Positions 6,753 to 64,000 of a stretch of DNA of 64,000 nucleotides are shown here, one piece after another; the stretch's first letter is position 1; each line of letters starts with the position of its first letter. Location: IMG/VR virus record IMGVR_UViG_3300009011_000001, positions 1 to 64,000 of that record, one strand, 5' to 3'. Origin of the DNA: a virus. The notes below the pieces were generated by a model. That model had not been told where the DNA came from and searched no databases. It saw only the letters and a list, made by a program, of their open reading frames with translations. Position numbers and translations under genes: made by a program.

Positions 6753-7034
6753 ATGAGTGAACCCTCCCTGATCGACAAAGTTGCCGATCTGCTTGGCAAC
6801 AGCAACGCCGCGCGCAAGGATGCTTTCAAGCGCAGTTTCAAAGCACCCAAAGCTGGTGGTGATGAAGTCAAGTCGCTCAACGACTACTTCCGGGTAGAGC
6901 TGAGCAAAGTGGAAGCGTCCACGATTGACGAACGCGGCTGCCTCATCGACGGCATCCCTCCAGCTAAATGGCTTCAGTATTTCGAAGTCCACGTTCTCCC
7001 AACCCTCGTTCGGTTTGAATTGCCGAAGGATTGA
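6753..7034 (+). CDS. Hypothetical 93-residue protein
   Basis: ATG 6753 has AAGGA upstream and lies 12 nt after the RecA-like gene, so it is probably co-transcribed. The N-terminus is basic and helical (AARKDAFKRSFKAPKA), followed by an acidic, aromatic C-terminal half (PPAKWLQYFEVHVLPTLVRFELPKD). There is no membrane segment or metal site. No family recognised. Its position suggests an accessory to the ATPase or to the next gene. Confidence 0.7.
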   Translation: MSEPSLIDKVADLLGNSNAARKDAFKRSFKAPKAGGDEVKSLNDYFRVELSKVEASTIDERGCLIDGIPPAKWLQYFEVHVLPTLVRFELPKD

Positions 7035-56535: not shown

Positions 56536-56766
56536 TTTTGTTAACTTTACACCATGCCCTTTATCTTATGTTCCACCAACAAAACTTCTTGGGAAAGGGG
56601 AAGAGGGGGTGGATTTCGAGGTACGAGAAATCCGGGGGTGATAGGGATAGGGTAAGACGCAATCCGAAGATGCGAGTGTAACGATGCTGATGAGGATTAT
56701 CTAATGCGACGAAGTCGCATAGGGAAGTTATTTTTTACAGTGTGGTCGAATGATATTCCTTAAATC

Positions 56767-56898: not shown

Positions 56899-57468
56899 AT
56901 GAAAGCTTATTCTGCATTCCTGAATTCCGTAGGTCAGTCCCGTAACCAAGCTTCGATGGAAGCAGGTAAACCGAAAGATCGTGACGACAGCAATACCTTT
57001 GACTCTGCTCAAGACGATGACAAAGGTCTGCGTCTGGCTAGCGAGCCGGGTTACCGCGAAGTGAATAACGTCATGATCGAACTGAACACTCCTCTGGATC
57101 AGTATCAGGACTCGATCACCTTCGTGACTGAATCGTTGCGTAAAGAAGGTTGGAAAGTGCGCCTGCGCTGCAAAGGCGAAGAGATCAGCGTTGAGAGTTT
57201 CAGCGATGGCATCATGCCTGGCGGCATCTCCCTCAATGGTGCCAACGAAGTCAACAACGTGATGAACGGTGTCTACGTCCCTGACTTTAAGGATGAAGAC
57301 CTGTACCGCGCTGTTAGCGTCATCCGTCCTGAGGACACCGCTCCTGATAGCAAAGAGGGCGTATTGTTCTTGGTTGATGGTAATGGTGATATTAAAGATT
57401 ACTTGGCAGGCGAAGGTTATAAGGTCGCAACCGATGCTGATACCCTGCAGGCCTTGTTGACGGCATAA
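56899..57468 (+). CDS. Hypothetical protein, 189 residues
   Basis: ATG 56899 with AGGT. Acidic and Asp-rich N-terminal part (KPKDRDDSNTFDSAQDDDKG), then an alpha/beta domain (DSITFVTESLRKEGWKVRLRCKG) and an acidic C-terminus. Starts with a basic, amphipathic MKAYSAFLNSVGQSRNQAS. It is followed by a hairpin (57473-57492). Convergent with the minus-strand gene. No family recognised. Confidence 0.74.
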   Translation: MKAYSAFLNSVGQSRNQASMEAGKPKDRDDSNTFDSAQDDDKGLRLASEPGYREVNNVMIELNTPLDQYQDSITFVTESLRKEGWKVRLRCKGEEISVESFSDGIMPGGISLNGANEVNNVMNGVYVPDFKDEDLYRAVSVIRPEDTAPDSKEGVLFLVDGNGDIKDYLAGEGYKVATDADTLQALLTA

Positions 57469-58431: not shown

Positions 58432-59436
58432 ATGACCTCCGGCCAATTGATTCAGTCGAAAACTCGCAGTGTGACCTTCTACGCCTGTGGCGGTCCTGGC
58501 GCCAATTTGCTGCGCACTCATCGCGAAGATCATCCTCTGGCTAACGCCTCGGCGATTGCTGATGAGAAGTACTGCTTCATCGACACCAGTATTGCCAACC
58601 TGGCTGGCGTCACTCTGGAAGACACTTACGTTCTGGAAGGTCTCGACGGCTCGGGTTCCGATCGCCCTCGTAACGCCAAAGCGATCAAGGAAGCCATGCC
58701 GGCCATCCTGAACAAGTTCAAGCCAGGCGACATCAACATCGTTCTGTTCAGCGCCGCTGGCGGTACCGGTTCGACTGCAGGTCCAATCCTGATCGAAGAA
58801 CTGCTGAAGGCCGGTAAGAAAGTGTTCGCAATCATCAGCGGTGCTCACGGCACCCTGAAGGCAACTGCAAACACCATCGCTACCCTGACCGGTCTGGAAG
58901 GCACCGTCAAACGTGTCAACCGTCCGGTGGTCATGTCGTATCGCGAAAACGATCCGACCAAGAACAATGCCGCCAACAACGTCGTTGCTCTGATGACCAT
59001 GTCGGCCCTGTCTCTGCTGTGCTCCGGCAAGAACATCCAGCTGGACGGCGCAGATATCGGCAACCTGGTCGACTATCCTGCTGTGACTCACTTCCCGGCT
59101 TCTCTGGCCATGCTCGACGTGTACGTCAACGAAGATCAACTGATCAACGAAGCCACCAGCGCTATCGCTCACCTCGCTCTGCTGAAGAACGAAGATGCGG
59201 TAATGCCGGCGATCAACCCAGCCTACGGCAAGTATGGCTACCTGCCAGCAGAAGCTGCTGAACGTTACAAAGAGTCTTTCCACTATGTGGTCAGCAACTC
59301 TCGCCTGAAAGGCGTCCTGGAAAAGCTGCTCCAGCGTCGTGAAGAGCTCGAGTCAGCTCAAGCCGTGATTGAGCGCCAAACCAGCCTGTCGACGCCGAAC
59401 GTGAAGATCGACGAAGACACCGGCCTGGTGTTCTAA
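58432..59436 (+). CDS. phuZ: Phage tubulin/FtsZ-family GTPase (PhuZ-like)
   Basis: A 334-residue protein, ATG 58432. The tubulin signature is present: CGGPGAN near the N-terminus and GGTGSTAG at residues 110-117, the phosphate-binding G-box. Further family-like segments are NNAANNVVALMTMS and the acidic C-terminal tail (VKIDEDTGLVF), which in PhuZ contacts the next subunit. In phiKZ-like phages PhuZ forms a dynamic spindle that centres the phage nucleus and carries capsids to it. Length is close to known PhuZ proteins. Codon use is strongly biased, fitting high expression. Preceded by a 62-nt divergent gap; followed by a hairpin. Confidence 0.9.
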   Translation: MTSGQLIQSKTRSVTFYACGGPGANLLRTHREDHPLANASAIADEKYCFIDTSIANLAGVTLEDTYVLEGLDGSGSDRPRNAKAIKEAMPAILNKFKPGDINIVLFSAAGGTGSTAGPILIEELLKAGKKVFAIISGAHGTLKATANTIATLTGLEGTVKRVNRPVVMSYRENDPTKNNAANNVVALMTMSALSLLCSGKNIQLDGADIGNLVDYPAVTHFPASLAMLDVYVNEDQLINEATSAIAHLALLKNEDAVMPAINPAYGKYGYLPAEAAERYKESFHYVVSNSRLKGVLEKLLQRREELESAQAVIERQTSLSTPNVKIDEDTGLVF

Positions 59437-59506: not shown

Positions 59507-59740
59507 ATGGAAGCAACGTTACTGTTCAAATGTGATCGCTGCAACAACGTCGACCACATGAAAGCCACCGGTCCATCCGGCACCGGTCAGATGCTCTGCC
59601 ATCGCTGCCAGCATGGCGAGTGGCACGATCAATTCCCAGAAGAACAATACGACTCGTCGTTGCACGACGTGTTCAATGCACCAGCAGGTGCGTCGGCATC
59701 GCCATCGTTCCTCGGCGGTCCAGCCTTCCAGGTCGATTAG
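59507..59740 (+). CDS. 77-residue double-CxxC (zinc-binding-like) protein
   Basis: ATG 59507 with AAGG. CDRC at residues 9-12 and CHRC at 31-34, with a His-containing HGEWHDQFPEE after the second pair. This is a small treble-clef or ribbon-like zinc site, followed by a Gly/Ala/Ser tail. It resembles the 55-residue CxxC protein at 48013 in plan only. It is probably transcribed with or just after tubulin. A partner or regulator role is inference. Confidence 0.76.
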   Translation: MEATLLFKCDRCNNVDHMKATGPSGTGQMLCHRCQHGEWHDQFPEEQYDSSLHDVFNAPAGASASPSFLGGPAFQVD

Positions 59741-59784: not shown

Positions 59785-59890
59785 CTGCTAAATCTTTCTT
59801 TTTGATGTGGTAGTGAGGGTCATTACGTTAAAGTTTGTCAGATAGCTTTGTAGACCCATTCAGATAGTATCTTATCACAGTAAGGCCAAA

Positions 59891-59905
59891 TACTGTGGTA
59901 ATTAA
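59891..59905 (+). promoter_or_regulatory. Promoter-like motif TACTGTGGTAATTAA before tandem array
   Basis: Same word as at 5231 with one extra G, 14 nt before ATG 59920, and again followed by GAGCATTTA in the leader. It lies at the head of the whole right-end array. Confidence 0.5.
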
Positions 59906-59919
59906 CCGAGAGCATTTAC

Positions 59920-60300
59920 ATGAAAGCTACTCTGATTGATGTAAATCCAATTCTGGAACGACTCAGCAAACGTGAAGGAGTTGGCTTCAATGCTCCAGTG
60001 ATGGAGAGCTGGGTTGCGCGCACTTACGGAAGGCGTTGGGATGTCCAGTGTGTTAGCAGTCGATTGCTTCACGACTTCGGTGCCTCTAAGGGCGGATCGT
60101 TCGAACAGCTCTCGTTCGCCAAGTCGATGGACACCCTGGGTTACGACCTGATCGGTGCTTTGCCCGCTCCGGGTGAGTTCAAGATGCCATTGAACGGCGG
60201 TAAGAGTCCGACGTTTTTGGTGCATTTGTCGGATGAAGGGTTTTTAGTGATCGGAGATCCAAATGAAGTTAACCGCCATCGGAGAGACCCGAGTAATTGA
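59920..60300 (+). CDS. Tandem-array paralog 1
   Basis: A 126-residue protein, ATG 59920. It begins with a strand of the form hhhD (KATLIDVNPILERL) and has near its end a PTFLVHLSDEGFLVIGD segment, the C-terminal beta-hairpin (hydrophobic strand, D/E-G turn, hydrophobic strand) found in the other members. A few extra residues (NEVNRHRRDPSN) overlap the next gene by 38 nt. Function unknown; see findings for the family pattern. Most basic and probably most expressed member. Confidence 0.76.
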   Translation: MKATLIDVNPILERLSKREGVGFNAPVMESWVARTYGRRWDVQCVSSRLLHDFGASKGGSFEQLSFAKSMDTLGYDLIGALPAPGEFKMPLNGGKSPTFLVHLSDEGFLVIGDPNEVNRHRRDPSN

Positions 60301-60706
60301 TTTCAGCGAGGTAGTTCGCTGGACCATCAAGAACATCCAGCGGAATCTTCCCGATCTACGAGTCAATGAAGATGCGGTTGAAGCGACGGTCGCTGATATT
60401 GTGGACCGTACGCTCACGATCCAGATGAAGTGGACAAAGGTCATGCGGTACGAGCCAGAAGAAGATTACATGGTGCGGATGGGTGCTCGTGCGCATCCAG
60501 AAGGCTGGCTCTTTATCCAAGACGTTATCGAAGAGACACTTGCGTTCCTACAGACGTTTCTTACATTACCGACGTGGAACATCGTGTCAATGCGCATCTC
60601 CGGTAGCTTTGCCCACATTGAACTATGTGAAGATTTCCGAATAAAAGACTGGATGGAAAAACATGCTAAGGAATATGGAGTTCATAACGCAAACAAACGG
60701 TGGTAA
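60263..60706 (+). CDS. Tandem-array paralog 2
   Basis: A 147-residue protein, ATG 60263 with GGAG, overlapping the previous gene by 38 nt. Family pattern: N-terminal strand TRVIDFSEVV, a helical centre (VNEDAVEATVADIVDRTLTI), and a C-terminal hairpin NIVSMRISGSFAHIELCED. A tail (RIKDWMEKHAKEYGVHNANKRW) runs past the hairpin into the next gene. Unknown function. Confidence 0.73.
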   Translation: MKLTAIGETRVIDFSEVVRWTIKNIQRNLPDLRVNEDAVEATVADIVDRTLTIQMKWTKVMRYEPEEDYMVRMGARAHPEGWLFIQDVIEETLAFLQTFLTLPTWNIVSMRISGSFAHIELCEDFRIKDWMEKHAKEYGVHNANKRW

Positions 60707-61268
60707 ACGGTTTGCTACGCTTGACATTGAAAGTCAAGTGAAAGAAATGAAGAAGTTCCTGACCAGCCGCTGGGATGATCCATTTCGTCCTCGGCAGTTA
60801 GCTTACAAGATGATCAAAGAAATCATCAACCACATCGTCCGTCAATCCAATGAATCTCTCCTAACCATTGCAAAGAGGTACTCTAAAGACTCAGCCGAAT
60901 ACTACTCCCTGCTGCCTTATGTAGCCCGGTTTGACCACGACTTCCGAAGCGCATTGCATGAACTCGCTGGCGACGATAACGTGATCGGTAACGTTGAGTT
61001 CTCCGAAGACAGCGCACTCATGGTTGTTGAAATATTTTCGTTGGAAACCAATCATGGACAAACCAGATTCGACCACTACATTGACGGTCTGCGAGACGAA
61101 GGAGTCTACATCCACCGAGATGTCGAAAAGCTCCTCCAAGAGTGGAAGTCCACAGACCAAAGATTTCATTTTCGACATCAGGGCACTGGACTTAGGAACC
61201 TTAGCCGACAAGCTGCTGATCTCCCCGGATCTCTTGCTGAAAGCAACATTGAACTACCTTCTCTTTGA
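60663..61268 (+). CDS. Tandem-array paralog 3, with extended overlapping tail
   Basis: A 201-residue protein, ATG 60663. Family pattern: KRFATLDIESQVKEM strand-helix start, helices, and the hairpin GNVEFSEDSALMVVEIFSLE. After about residue 130 the frame goes on for some 70 codons. Roughly the first 35-40 (TRFDHYIDGLRDEGVYIHRD) look protein-like. The last ~40 lie over the conserved N-terminal strand of the next paralog and look less constrained. Either a genuine long overlap or a frameshift near 61150-61160 is possible. Confidence 0.64.
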   Translation: MLRNMEFITQTNGGKRFATLDIESQVKEMKKFLTSRWDDPFRPRQLAYKMIKEIINHIVRQSNESLLTIAKRYSKDSAEYYSLLPYVARFDHDFRSALHELAGDDNVIGNVEFSEDSALMVVEIFSLETNHGQTRFDHYIDGLRDEGVYIHRDVEKLLQEWKSTDQRFHFRHQGTGLRNLSRQAADLPGSLAESNIELPSL

Positions 61269-61500
61269 CGATTGCACCGATTGGCAAAGAATGGGCGAGA
61301 AGTTCTCCCAGGATCCGGCTGAAATGATTCCGCTAAGCTACCATCTGGATCAGTGGTGGATGGAGAAAGCAGAAATGATGAATGATCTGTTCGCAGACCT
61401 CATCGCAGCTCGGCCGTTTAAATGGAAGCGGGTATTCGTGTGCGAAGATGAGTTCGCCAAGATTGTAGTCACATCACTCGAGAAAGATCCATGGCCCTAA
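61054..61500 (+). CDS. Tandem-array paralog 4
   Basis: A 148-residue protein. ATG 61054 with GGA about 9 nt upstream is the best start in frame; the open frame extends to 60994. The first ~35 residues are Ser/Thr/Lys-rich and overlap paralog 3. Then the family strand KDFIFDIRALDLGTLADKL, helices, and the hairpin KRVFVCEDEFAKIVVTSLEK. If a frameshift joins it to paralog 3, the true start would be lost; the paralog pattern favours separate genes. Confidence 0.66.
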   Translation: MDKPDSTTTLTVCETKESTSTEMSKSSSKSGSPQTKDFIFDIRALDLGTLADKLLISPDLLLKATLNYLLFDDCTDWQRMGEKFSQDPAEMIPLSYHLDQWWMEKAEMMNDLFADLIAARPFKWKRVFVCEDEFAKIVVTSLEKDPWP

Positions 61501-61832
61501 AGACCTTCTTAATTGATCTGGTCGAAGCAAGACTCCCCCAAGAGTTCGGTTTCCCGGATCTGGGGGTCGACGGGGAAGTCTTGTTCAACATGATGGTTAA
61601 GGCATCCATTTGGGAAGAGGACATCATCTTCGACCTACGCTCATGGCTGTGTGATCAGAATTACTTCAGCCAAGGCGATCAGATCCTCGACCAGTTCTGG
61701 ACGTTCCGGATTTTCATCTGGGACGTCATCAAGCATCAGAACAAAGGCATGCCGATTAACTTTGGCAAGCTGGATTCAACTCAGATACTGGACAATCAGT
61801 TCGGCATCATCAACATCAAACTACCGGAGTAG
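61491..61832 (+). CDS. Tandem-array paralog 5
   Basis: A 113-residue protein, ATG 61491 overlapping the previous stop by 10 nt. Strand KTFLIDLVEARLPQEF, helices rich in Trp/Phe, and a C-terminal hairpin (FGKLDSTQILDNQFGIINIKL). A compact, clean member of the family, useful as a length reference. Function unknown. Confidence 0.76.
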   Translation: MALKTFLIDLVEARLPQEFGFPDLGVDGEVLFNMMVKASIWEEDIIFDLRSWLCDQNYFSQGDQILDQFWTFRIFIWDVIKHQNKGMPINFGKLDSTQILDNQFGIINIKLPE

Positions 61833-61837
61833 CCTCA

Positions 61838-62251
61838 ATGGCAAGAGCACCAGCGCCTGAGAGGAAATCGGTTATCCTCGACGTCAGGAGCGATATCGCA
61901 GAATCAATAATCCGTCTGGGAGACTATCTTCCGCCAACGGAACGACACCACTTCATCTCTTCTTCTGTAAGCATCATGCTGGCAGGTGTCATGCTTGATG
62001 ATAACAACAGCACTGCGTTAGATGCCATGGATCGACTGGTGTCTGACACAGGGCTGGCTCAGCCATCTCAGTCCGCAGGGCTGCTTGGCGAAATGCTTGT
62101 ACTTAACAACGTATTCCGCAGTAGTTATAAGCATCACGACGGTATTCTGGACGAACTTGAGCAGCTAATGCCCAACGACCCCCGCTGCAATATCGAGGAA
62201 GTTTTCAACGTGGAGTTCTCTCCCGATGGGAATTTTCTGAGGATACGTTAG
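61838..62251 (+). CDS. Tandem-array paralog 6
   Basis: A 137-residue protein, ATG 61838 with GGAG. Short unstructured start (MARAPAPER), then KSVILDVRSDIAESIIRL, helices, and the hairpin VFNVEFSPDGNFLRIR at the very end. The hairpin ends the protein, as in most members. Overlaps the next gene by one base. Confidence 0.76.
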   Translation: MARAPAPERKSVILDVRSDIAESIIRLGDYLPPTERHHFISSSVSIMLAGVMLDDNNSTALDAMDRLVSDTGLAQPSQSAGLLGEMLVLNNVFRSSYKHHDGILDELEQLMPNDPRCNIEEVFNVEFSPDGNFLRIR

Positions 62252-62643
62252 TGCCAGCATACATCATCGACATAGACCTTCCGGCGATCAGCGACCTTGA
62301 GTTGGTCGCTGATCGTCTTATGCACCTGCAGGAATATGAGGAAGAAACTCGAGAGGTTGCGATGACCGATGTTACAGACGCTTTGTTGCATTATTGGTTG
62401 CTCGCAGACTTTGACAGACTGAACCTCTTGCTTGACGACATCAGGGCCGACCGGCCAGGATTCAGGGATCATGAGATCTTTGAAGCTTTTGAACGTCTGG
62501 CCAATCCCTTGAAAGCAGGATACCGCCAACTTAACAGTAGCTCTAAAGCCATTCAGCGCGAACTGCTTGAGGTCGATGAAATCATCACCTACGAAGTGAA
62601 AGTTGACAAGAACTTTAGAACTATTGGGTTCTCTATTTATTGA
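62251..62643 (+). CDS. Tandem-array paralog 7
   Basis: A 130-residue protein starting at GTG 62251 (TAGTG overlap), with GAGG upstream. Strand PAYIIDIDLPAISDLEL, a long acidic helix (QEYEEETREVAMTD), helices, and the C-terminal hairpin TYEVKVDKNFRTIGFSIY. Clean family member. Confidence 0.74.
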   Translation: MPAYIIDIDLPAISDLELVADRLMHLQEYEEETREVAMTDVTDALLHYWLLADFDRLNLLLDDIRADRPGFRDHEIFEAFERLANPLKAGYRQLNSSSKAIQRELLEVDEIITYEVKVDKNFRTIGFSIY

Positions 62644-62652
62644 GGAGCTGTC

Positions 62653-62973
62653 ATGGAGTCAGCGCAGAACAAGTTCATTTTCGATACGCCCAAAGATGGT
62701 GGACTTAATCTTGAAATGCTCCAAAAGACTATTGCCTTCTTCGCCACAGAGCTGAACGATCAAAACCAATTCCTCAGCGACTATCAGTATACGTTTTTGA
62801 GGGAGTCCTTCGGTGCTAATTCAAAGGCCATTGAGGACGTCTGCAACAAAGCCCTGGACATTTTGGAATATAGTGGCGTCATGAGAGAATTGATCGTGCC
62901 CGGTCAAATCCTTAATGATGTAAGCTGCGATCTGAACGAAGACTGCGGTAGAATAATCTTGGAGTGGTTATGA
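62653..62973 (+). CDS. Tandem-array paralog 8
   Basis: A 106-residue protein, ATG 62653 with GAGGAG. Strand NKFIFDTPKDGGLNLEML, helices, and the hairpin LNDVSCDLNEDCGRIILEWL at the end. The shortest member. Overlaps the next gene by 4 nt. Confidence 0.74.
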   Translation: MESAQNKFIFDTPKDGGLNLEMLQKTIAFFATELNDQNQFLSDYQYTFLRESFGANSKAIEDVCNKALDILEYSGVMRELIVPGQILNDVSCDLNEDCGRIILEWL

Positions 62974-63335
62974 ACGCATTAGCCAAGGTAGATAAAGATA
63001 CGGTGTTCCTGATCGAAGAGAACGCCTTCAACCGATTCAAGACCAAGGAAGAAATGATGGGTCATCTCGCCATCCTACGTGGCATGGCTGAACAGATCAC
63101 CGAGAGCGTACCCGTCAGTCTGGAGATTGCCATCTGGCCATCGACCGACCTGTTCCTTATGGGACACCCTGCGAAGTCCCCTGTTAGAACCTTGTACTCT
63201 GTACTTTCAGAAGTCCTCGCTTCTTCAGGATTCTCGATAGGGGTGCTCATGACCCTTGAGGTTGAGAACCATGAACCATACGACACCACCGCCATCAGGG
63301 TGGAAGGCCGCTACAGAATCTTTACCGTCCACTAA
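62970..63335 (+). CDS. Tandem-array paralog 9
   Basis: A 121-residue protein. ATG 62970 with GGAG immediately upstream is chosen over GTG 62964. N-terminal DTVFLIEENAFNRF, helices, and an end (LEVENHEPYDTTAIRVEGRY, then RIFTVH) that fits the hairpin with a longer turn. More diverged than the others. Overlaps the next gene by 65 nt. Confidence 0.72.
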   Translation: MNALAKVDKDTVFLIEENAFNRFKTKEEMMGHLAILRGMAEQITESVPVSLEIAIWPSTDLFLMGHPAKSPVRTLYSVLSEVLASSGFSIGVLMTLEVENHEPYDTTAIRVEGRYRIFTVH

Positions 63336-63765
63336 TGTCCATGTAGAGCGCTTCCTCTTTGATATCACGAAGGAGGTCAGCGCATTCGTGGACAACTCTG
63401 ACTATGGGGTAGAGGACTTAACTTACGATGTTCCGCGAATCGTAGCTTACTTCCAATTCGCCACAACCGACGTCGAGCTGTTAGCGGAGTATTTCTGGAC
63501 AAAGTACATTGCCGGTACGCCGAAGGATTCGATCATTCTTGCGTCACAGGCCGATAAGCAATTGTACCCGGATATGAACGAACAGTTTGAATCACAAGGA
63601 ATTGTGAAAGCCGACATTGTCGGCATAGACGTCGATTATACGGAGCATTCAACTAAAGGCCTTATCGAATGTTTTGTATTTGTCAGAGCCAAAGTTCGGA
63701 GTAAACCAGATGGTCTACCAGCGGGTAGTGGGCTTTTGCCCCGACTTAGTCACAAGGATCGATGA
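63271..63765 (+). CDS. Tandem-array paralog 10
   Basis: A 164-residue protein. ATG 63271 is taken because of a GAG site; the first ~28 residues overlap paralog 9. Family strand ERFLFDITKEVSAFV, helices (DVELLAEYFWTKYIAG), and the hairpin GIDVDYTEHSTKGLIECFVF with a longer turn. A basic tail follows (KVRSKPDGLPAGSG) that overlaps the next gene. Function unknown. Confidence 0.72.
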   Translation: MNHTTPPPSGWKAATESLPSTNVHVERFLFDITKEVSAFVDNSDYGVEDLTYDVPRIVAYFQFATTDVELLAEYFWTKYIAGTPKDSIILASQADKQLYPDMNEQFESQGIVKADIVGIDVDYTEHSTKGLIECFVFVRAKVRSKPDGLPAGSGLLPRLSHKDR

Positions 63766-64000
63766 GCTCGTAGCCGAGAAATTCGAATACGAGTATTTTG
63801 ATGATCCGATCAGTGATGCCAGAGCTGAGATGATTCGTGAGATGGACAGCTACTGGTACCGCCGGCAGCTTTTCGAGGCCTTTGGTGGCATCAATCACGT
63901 TGCTCTGCTCCGCAATGAATTGCAAGAGCTTGCTAAGGTCGTTGAGGGCCACGAGCTCCTTGAGGCATGTTGTCTCATGTATCGTCCATTCATCCTGCAC
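63710..64000 (+). CDS. Probable tandem-array paralog 11, partial (runs off right edge)
   Basis: An open frame of at least 97 codons from ATG 63710 with GGAG about 8 nt upstream. It starts MVYQRVVGFCPDLVTRIDEL, the family's strand-helix opening in weaker form (no Asp after the strand), followed by acidic helices. The end and the diagnostic hairpin lie outside the window. The minus-strand ORF over the same bases is a shadow. Confidence 0.65.
   Translation, partial: MVYQRVVGFCPDLVTRIDELVAEKFEYEYFDDPISDARAEMIREMDSYWYRRQLFEAFGGINHVALLRNELQELAKVVEGHELLEACCLMYRPFILH

Follow-up and report, generated by a model that had tools for sequence, protein, structure and literature searches.

An array of eleven small genes ahead of the DNA polymerase of a chimallivirus, most of them probably ancient copies of one gene

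Setting and composition of the array

The window analysed here comprises bases 1-64,000 of a 248,574-bp (248.6-kb) IMG/VR virus record, whose genome is labelled G000. The source virus is a chimallivirus, that is, a phiKZ-like, nucleus-forming phage, and carries the combination by which membership of the Chimalliviridae was judged: a divergent family-B DNA polymerase with SH3DP, the tubulin PhuZ, and a gene at the chimallin position near the polymerase. As the initial annotation had described, eleven consecutive genes occupy 59920-64000, all on the + strand. The right border of this array is genome position 64,129 (position 7129 of L002; L-numbers denote polymerase-bearing loci), the end of g11, immediately ahead of SH3DP (PF20287, E 4.8e-14) and then the divergent family-B DNA polymerase (PF20286, E 4.4e-207), both just beyond the window. 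The gene at the chimallin position (L002 11830-13791) is very divergent and matches the chimallin model PF25677 at E 0.0036, short of the cut-off. The features of the locus are as follows, "motif" referring to an N-terminal hydrophobic strand ending in Asp.

58432..59436, + strand: PhuZ tubulin, left neighbour of the array, with homologues in 191 phage records
59763..59784, + strand: terminator-like hairpin AGGGGGC-TTAAAC-GCCCCCT, with a T-rich stretch some bases downstream
59867..59898, + strand: promoter-like element of 32 nt, 21 nt before g1, aligned in relatives
59920..60300, + strand: g1, 126 aa, strand motif TLIDV
60263..60706, + strand: g2, 147 aa, homologue of the N-terminal half of PHIKZ043
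60663..61268, + strand: g3, 201 aa, motif FATLDI
61120..61500, + strand: g4, 126 aa, motif FIFDI, found in 37 loci, modelled with AF2
61491..61832, + strand: g5, 113 aa, motif FLIDL
61838..62251, + strand: g6, 137 aa, motif VILDV, found in 16 loci
62251..62643, + strand: g7, 130 aa, GTG start, motif YIIDI
62653..62973, + strand: g8, 106 aa, motif FIFDT, found in 16 loci
62964..63335, + strand: g9, 123 aa, found in 13 loci, N-terminal motif unmatched
63271..63765, + strand: g10, motif FLFDI, folded domain from about 63343, exact start uncertain
63710..64000, + strand: g11, 139 aa, cut by the window edge and ending at genome position 64,129, found in 19 loci

The overlaps between neighbouring genes are real, but the maximum of 215 nt given initially is not: with the g4 start set at 61120, the longest accepted overlap is 149 nt (g3/g4). 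Ten of the eleven array proteins carry a net negative charge. Between PhuZ and the array lies a small cysteine-rich, zinc-ribbon-like gene (59507-59740, 77 aa) with no family match above the cut-off.

The promoter-like motif and terminator hairpin first noted at the left side of the array are both kept among close relatives. The hairpin folds at -19.7 kcal/mol (z -2.05), and a hairpin plus T-rich stretch is visible at the equivalent place in most relatives. The core of the promoter-like element, AATCATGTA, occurs once per locus in L023, L027, L029, L033 and L040, each time directly before g1. A sigma-70 promoter scan gave nothing above chance, and the 32-nt element is no sigma-70 match. A second, weaker match to the element (56727-56758; score 15.7 versus 12.6 for the best of the shuffled control) lies upstream of the gene at 56899.

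Conservation, divergence and selection

A polymerase-based scan yielded 80 loci, whose upstream regions were then searched by HMM. All eleven genes are open and in the same order in L005, which has 88% polymerase identity to G000. In the wider set g1-g4 and g6-g11 were recovered in 12-55 loci each, g2 being the most widespread array family (55 loci), and about twelve additional IMG/VR relatives also have ten of the families (all but g5). These searches detected g5 in G000 and L005 only, and g7 had no match in the L036/L042/L073 group. Among close relatives the array order is constant and ten of the genes are mostly kept one-to-one. Small genes stand in a row ahead of SH3DP and the polymerase in 18 of 18 annotated phages inspected, among them phiKZ, PhiPA3, 201phi2-1, Psa21, Phabio, RAY, Eowyn, SA002, Aphrodite1 and D3, with a copy number of about 5 to 11 per phage. 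Pseudomonas phage pPa_SNUABM_DT01 (MW735835) has, in the stretch L006 6559-7104, an unannotated g4 homologue that ends near 6866 (E 3e-24); the annotated start of the overlapping CDS PA10_00138 is probably too far upstream.

Array proteins of G000 and L005 share 44-84% identity (84% for g1), compared with 88% for the polymerase, 77% for PhuZ and 75% for SH3DP; array genes thus diverge faster than the polymerase, and all but g1 also faster than PhuZ. For the five genes with an estimable dS in this comparison (g2, g3, g4, g5 and g7), dN/dS is 0.13-0.31, synonymous sites being saturated in the other six. Selection on the array is purifying where estimable, and its evolution is fast yet constrained. 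The rapid divergence recognised at the outset stands, but it accompanies an order and content that are largely kept.

The accompanying suggestion that these are accessory or host-interaction genes finds no support: all related phages checked have them at one fixed place ahead of the DNA polymerase, mostly one-to-one and with their order preserved. A rival reading of this kind takes the array as the same paralogue family, diversified by duplication, but with every copy acting on its own and binding its own host protein, for takeover or counter-defence. It would fit the low ortholog identities relative to polymerase and PhuZ, the small, mostly acidic products that lack a family match, and the gain or loss of g5 and g7. 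It fits poorly with a gene order that is largely fixed, with 1:1 retention that is almost complete across wide divergence, with purifying selection, with a family-wide fixed place beside the DNA polymerase, and with the fusion of two array genes described below. Conserved order and content and purifying selection weaken the accessory or counter-defence reading; independent host binding appears less likely than the interpretation preferred here, though it ranks next after it.

Evidence for a common origin

Most array genes are probably ancient copies of one gene, with a predicted fold that has no known relative. The initial annotation had proposed repeated duplication with rapid divergence, to be checked by profile (HMM-HMM) comparison and structure prediction. 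Compared directly, the eleven G000 families gave no significant pair (best E 0.0085 among 55 pairs); weak matches include g7 with g4 (E 0.0085 over 58 columns) and g5 with g4 (in register, E 0.059). Across 53 upstream families, 18 pairs reached E<0.001 versus 0 reversed-profile pairs, and 33 aligned over at least 70 columns at E<0.1 versus 0 of 1,378 reversed-profile pairs. Some linked pairs represent one gene in two clades and others different genes within one genome. Single array genes with profile links include g1, to c25 (DT01 clade; E 4.5e-5), and g9, to c58, a family at the same position (E 6.4e-5).

Homologous pairs within the same genome occur in relatives, namely c113-c129 (E 2.8e-10) and c113-c115 (E 5.8e-8), both neighbouring array genes, and c15-c22 (E 2.4e-4). 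Tandem homologues within one genome at this locus are present in L079, L086, L093, L094, L097 and L100; the three consecutive overlapping genes of L094 (6771-7241, 7198-7653 and 7637-8044) are mutually homologous. Within G000 itself tandem homologues were not found directly. A chain of profiles reaches the array, as g10 is linked to c27 (E 2.6e-7) and on through c62 to the group c62/c113/c115/c129. Merged superfamily profiles match only c97 and c15 strongly, with weak matches to g1 (E 0.0036), g3 (0.011) and g2 (0.018) in a search where reversed controls reached 0.0014 on short matches. The g3 family matches c15+c84 weakly, over 136 profile columns (E 0.011). Searched with the g10 profile, the genome yielded no further copies elsewhere.

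Structure prediction points the same way for the two members modelled with AlphaFold (AF2). The g10 model (pLDDT 88.6, pTM 0.80) consists of E2-7, H9-20, H30-39, H44-53, H60-83, E87-100 and E107-118, and the g4 model (pLDDT 90.3, pTM 0.83) of E4-10, H16-23, H27-40, H44-50, H63-81, H83-87, E91-99 and E103-110. By element order both have one topology, b-aaaa-b-b, with a short extra helix in g4, even though they were built from non-overlapping alignments with no sequence in common. The common topology expected from duplication is found in these two. The shared plan originally read from the sequences also recurs in the models: strand 1 closes on the Asp of FLFD in g10 (D7) and of FIFD in g4 (D10), and the C-terminal hairpin with an acidic turn appears in g4, which turns on EDE (E100-D101-E102).

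In a Foldseek search of BFVD, both models retrieve small uncharacterised chimallivirus proteins, with eight targets in common between the two top-50 lists; the E-values are modest (best 1.1e-3) and many targets are nameless. Targets could be matched to array genes by organism and length or name in Eowyn (118 and 116 aa), 201phi2-1 (gp79 and gp80), Psa21 (gp040 and gp044), PhiPA3 (044), PS119XW (264 aa) and Aphrodite1 (135 aa), a matching that provides good though not complete evidence. No PDB structure resembles the g10 model in Foldseek (best E 0.29), and against PDB sequences the g10 profile gives just low-level matches to helical designs and similar, and the g4 profile none.

The N-terminal strand motif is present in 8 of 11 array genes versus 4 of 50 other genes of the window, a count to be read in the knowledge that these same genes had suggested the motif. 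An independent test in 16 other phages finds it in 23 of 109 array genes and 6 of 109 flanking genes (Fisher p=0.001). One relative can carry it in different array families, as with VVDIS in g1 and g10 of L023. At the other end of the protein, g11 has a C-terminal LSDEGF hairpin resembling that of g1. The two genes have in common a 25-nt repeat, 88% identical, that codes for this hairpin in both; it may reflect gene conversion or a leftover of duplication.

Taken together, the topology of two models, tandem paralogues in relatives, the profile chain to g10 and common structural neighbours speak for repeated duplication with extreme divergence. A common origin of g4 and g10 is well supported, and that of g1-g3 and g5-g8 is probable. 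The genes g9 and g11 may belong as well, but with no significant direct pair among the eleven G000 families their paralogy is the least certain. That same result, together with the lack of the motif in g2, g9 and g11 of G000, would suit a shared origin confined to a subset (e.g. g4, g10 and some further genes) gathered in one operon with unrelated small genes. Such a restricted origin is improbable given that the strand motif recurs in the families of g1-g8 and g10 and across genomes, and that long profile matches greatly exceed reversed controls.

Possible role and known systems

Database searches say little about function. Pfam and PHROGs gave no match above the cut-off for g1-g10, nor Pfam for the partial g11; NCBIfam gave none for eight array proteins, and PADLOC, whose library holds defence systems and not their inhibitors, none for g1-g9 and g11. 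No conserved catalytic pattern is evident in the array alignments. The function of small uncharacterised genes is listed as an open question in a 2026 review of jumbo phages (PMC13282480).

The fusion mentioned above offers a hint. The g2 family matches the N-terminal half of PHIKZ043 (hhalign E 9.9e-21) and family c15 its C-terminal half (E 2.5e-5 over 54 columns); the two halves do not match each other. The c15 gene directly follows g2 as a separate gene in 14 other loci and is fused to it in PHIKZ043. Two neighbouring array genes thus appear as one protein in phiKZ-like phages, which may hint that their products act together.

The preferred interpretation, put forward tentatively, is that the array arose by ancient tandem expansion and that its products form a hetero-oligomer within the replication/nucleus module. 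On this view a single small protein, probably without enzymatic activity and with the predicted order b1-a1-a2-a3-a4-b2-b3, would have been duplicated anciently in tandem, leaving roughly 5-11 diverged and individually specialised copies at one constant site in Chimalliviridae genomes. The copies would be transcribed from their own promoter upstream of g1 and, to judge from the start-stop overlaps, probably translated in step. Their products might then assemble together into a hetero-oligomer that would serve the adjoining module of SH3DP, divergent DNA polymerase, chimallin and non-virion RNA polymerase. Computation supports the locus and its conservation, the element order in two models, the tandem paralogues, the promoter-like element and the PHIKZ043 fusion. 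A copy number of about 5 to 11 is awkward for a complex of fixed composition. A published phiKZ knockdown hit table does not contain the array genes; it covers 75 core and annotated genes and may have excluded them.

The hetero-oligomer is favoured over host targeting because phiKZ049, the SH3 protein encoded next to the block, is described as interacting with the polymerase and as having a strong effect when knocked down (PMC12571901). Independent host binders rank second and the smaller paralogue set third, ahead of the proposal that these are minor virion or assembly proteins. Small-gene clusters in phages often encode structural parts, which would suit this last proposal. The locus, however, sits among replication and transcription genes, and the 201phi2-1 record notes mass-spectrometric detection of gp73, gp81 and gp98, not of gp74-gp80, making a virion role very unlikely. 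It is conceivable, if a long shot, that throughout the family a multi-paralogue assembly with a fold not described before belongs to the core of the phage replisome or nucleus; it could, for example, be a hetero-oligomeric ring replacing the sliding clamp, or act at the nuclear shell as a channel or scaffold. Treating such a block of small genes as probable copies of a single fold reduces many unknowns to one question open to testing, and the place of the block beside the DNA polymerase indicates where to look for its function.

Among known systems, the closest is the PHIKZ043-PHIKZ048 block of phiKZ with its equivalents in PhiPA3, 201phi2-1, RAY, Eowyn and SA002, which likewise lie before SH3DP and the DNA polymerase. 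Besides the homology of g2 to the N-terminal half of PHIKZ043, fold-search matches fit genes of the block by organism and length. These genes are annotated merely as separate hypothetical proteins in separate PHROGs, and the literature searched yielded no paper on PHIKZ043-048 and none that treats the genes of these blocks as one family. SH3DP (PF20287; phiKZ049) adjoins the array, is of similar size and likely belongs to the same operon, but has an SH3 fold by Pfam, unlike the predicted b-aaaa-b-b of the array proteins. Bacillus phage G, with about 35 zinc-ribbon copies in a lineage-specific expansion (PMC7824862), is likewise a case of a small protein expanded in a jumbo phage. There the expansion concerns one lineage and a known fold, whereas the array combines a fold without match with a fixed locus shared across the family.
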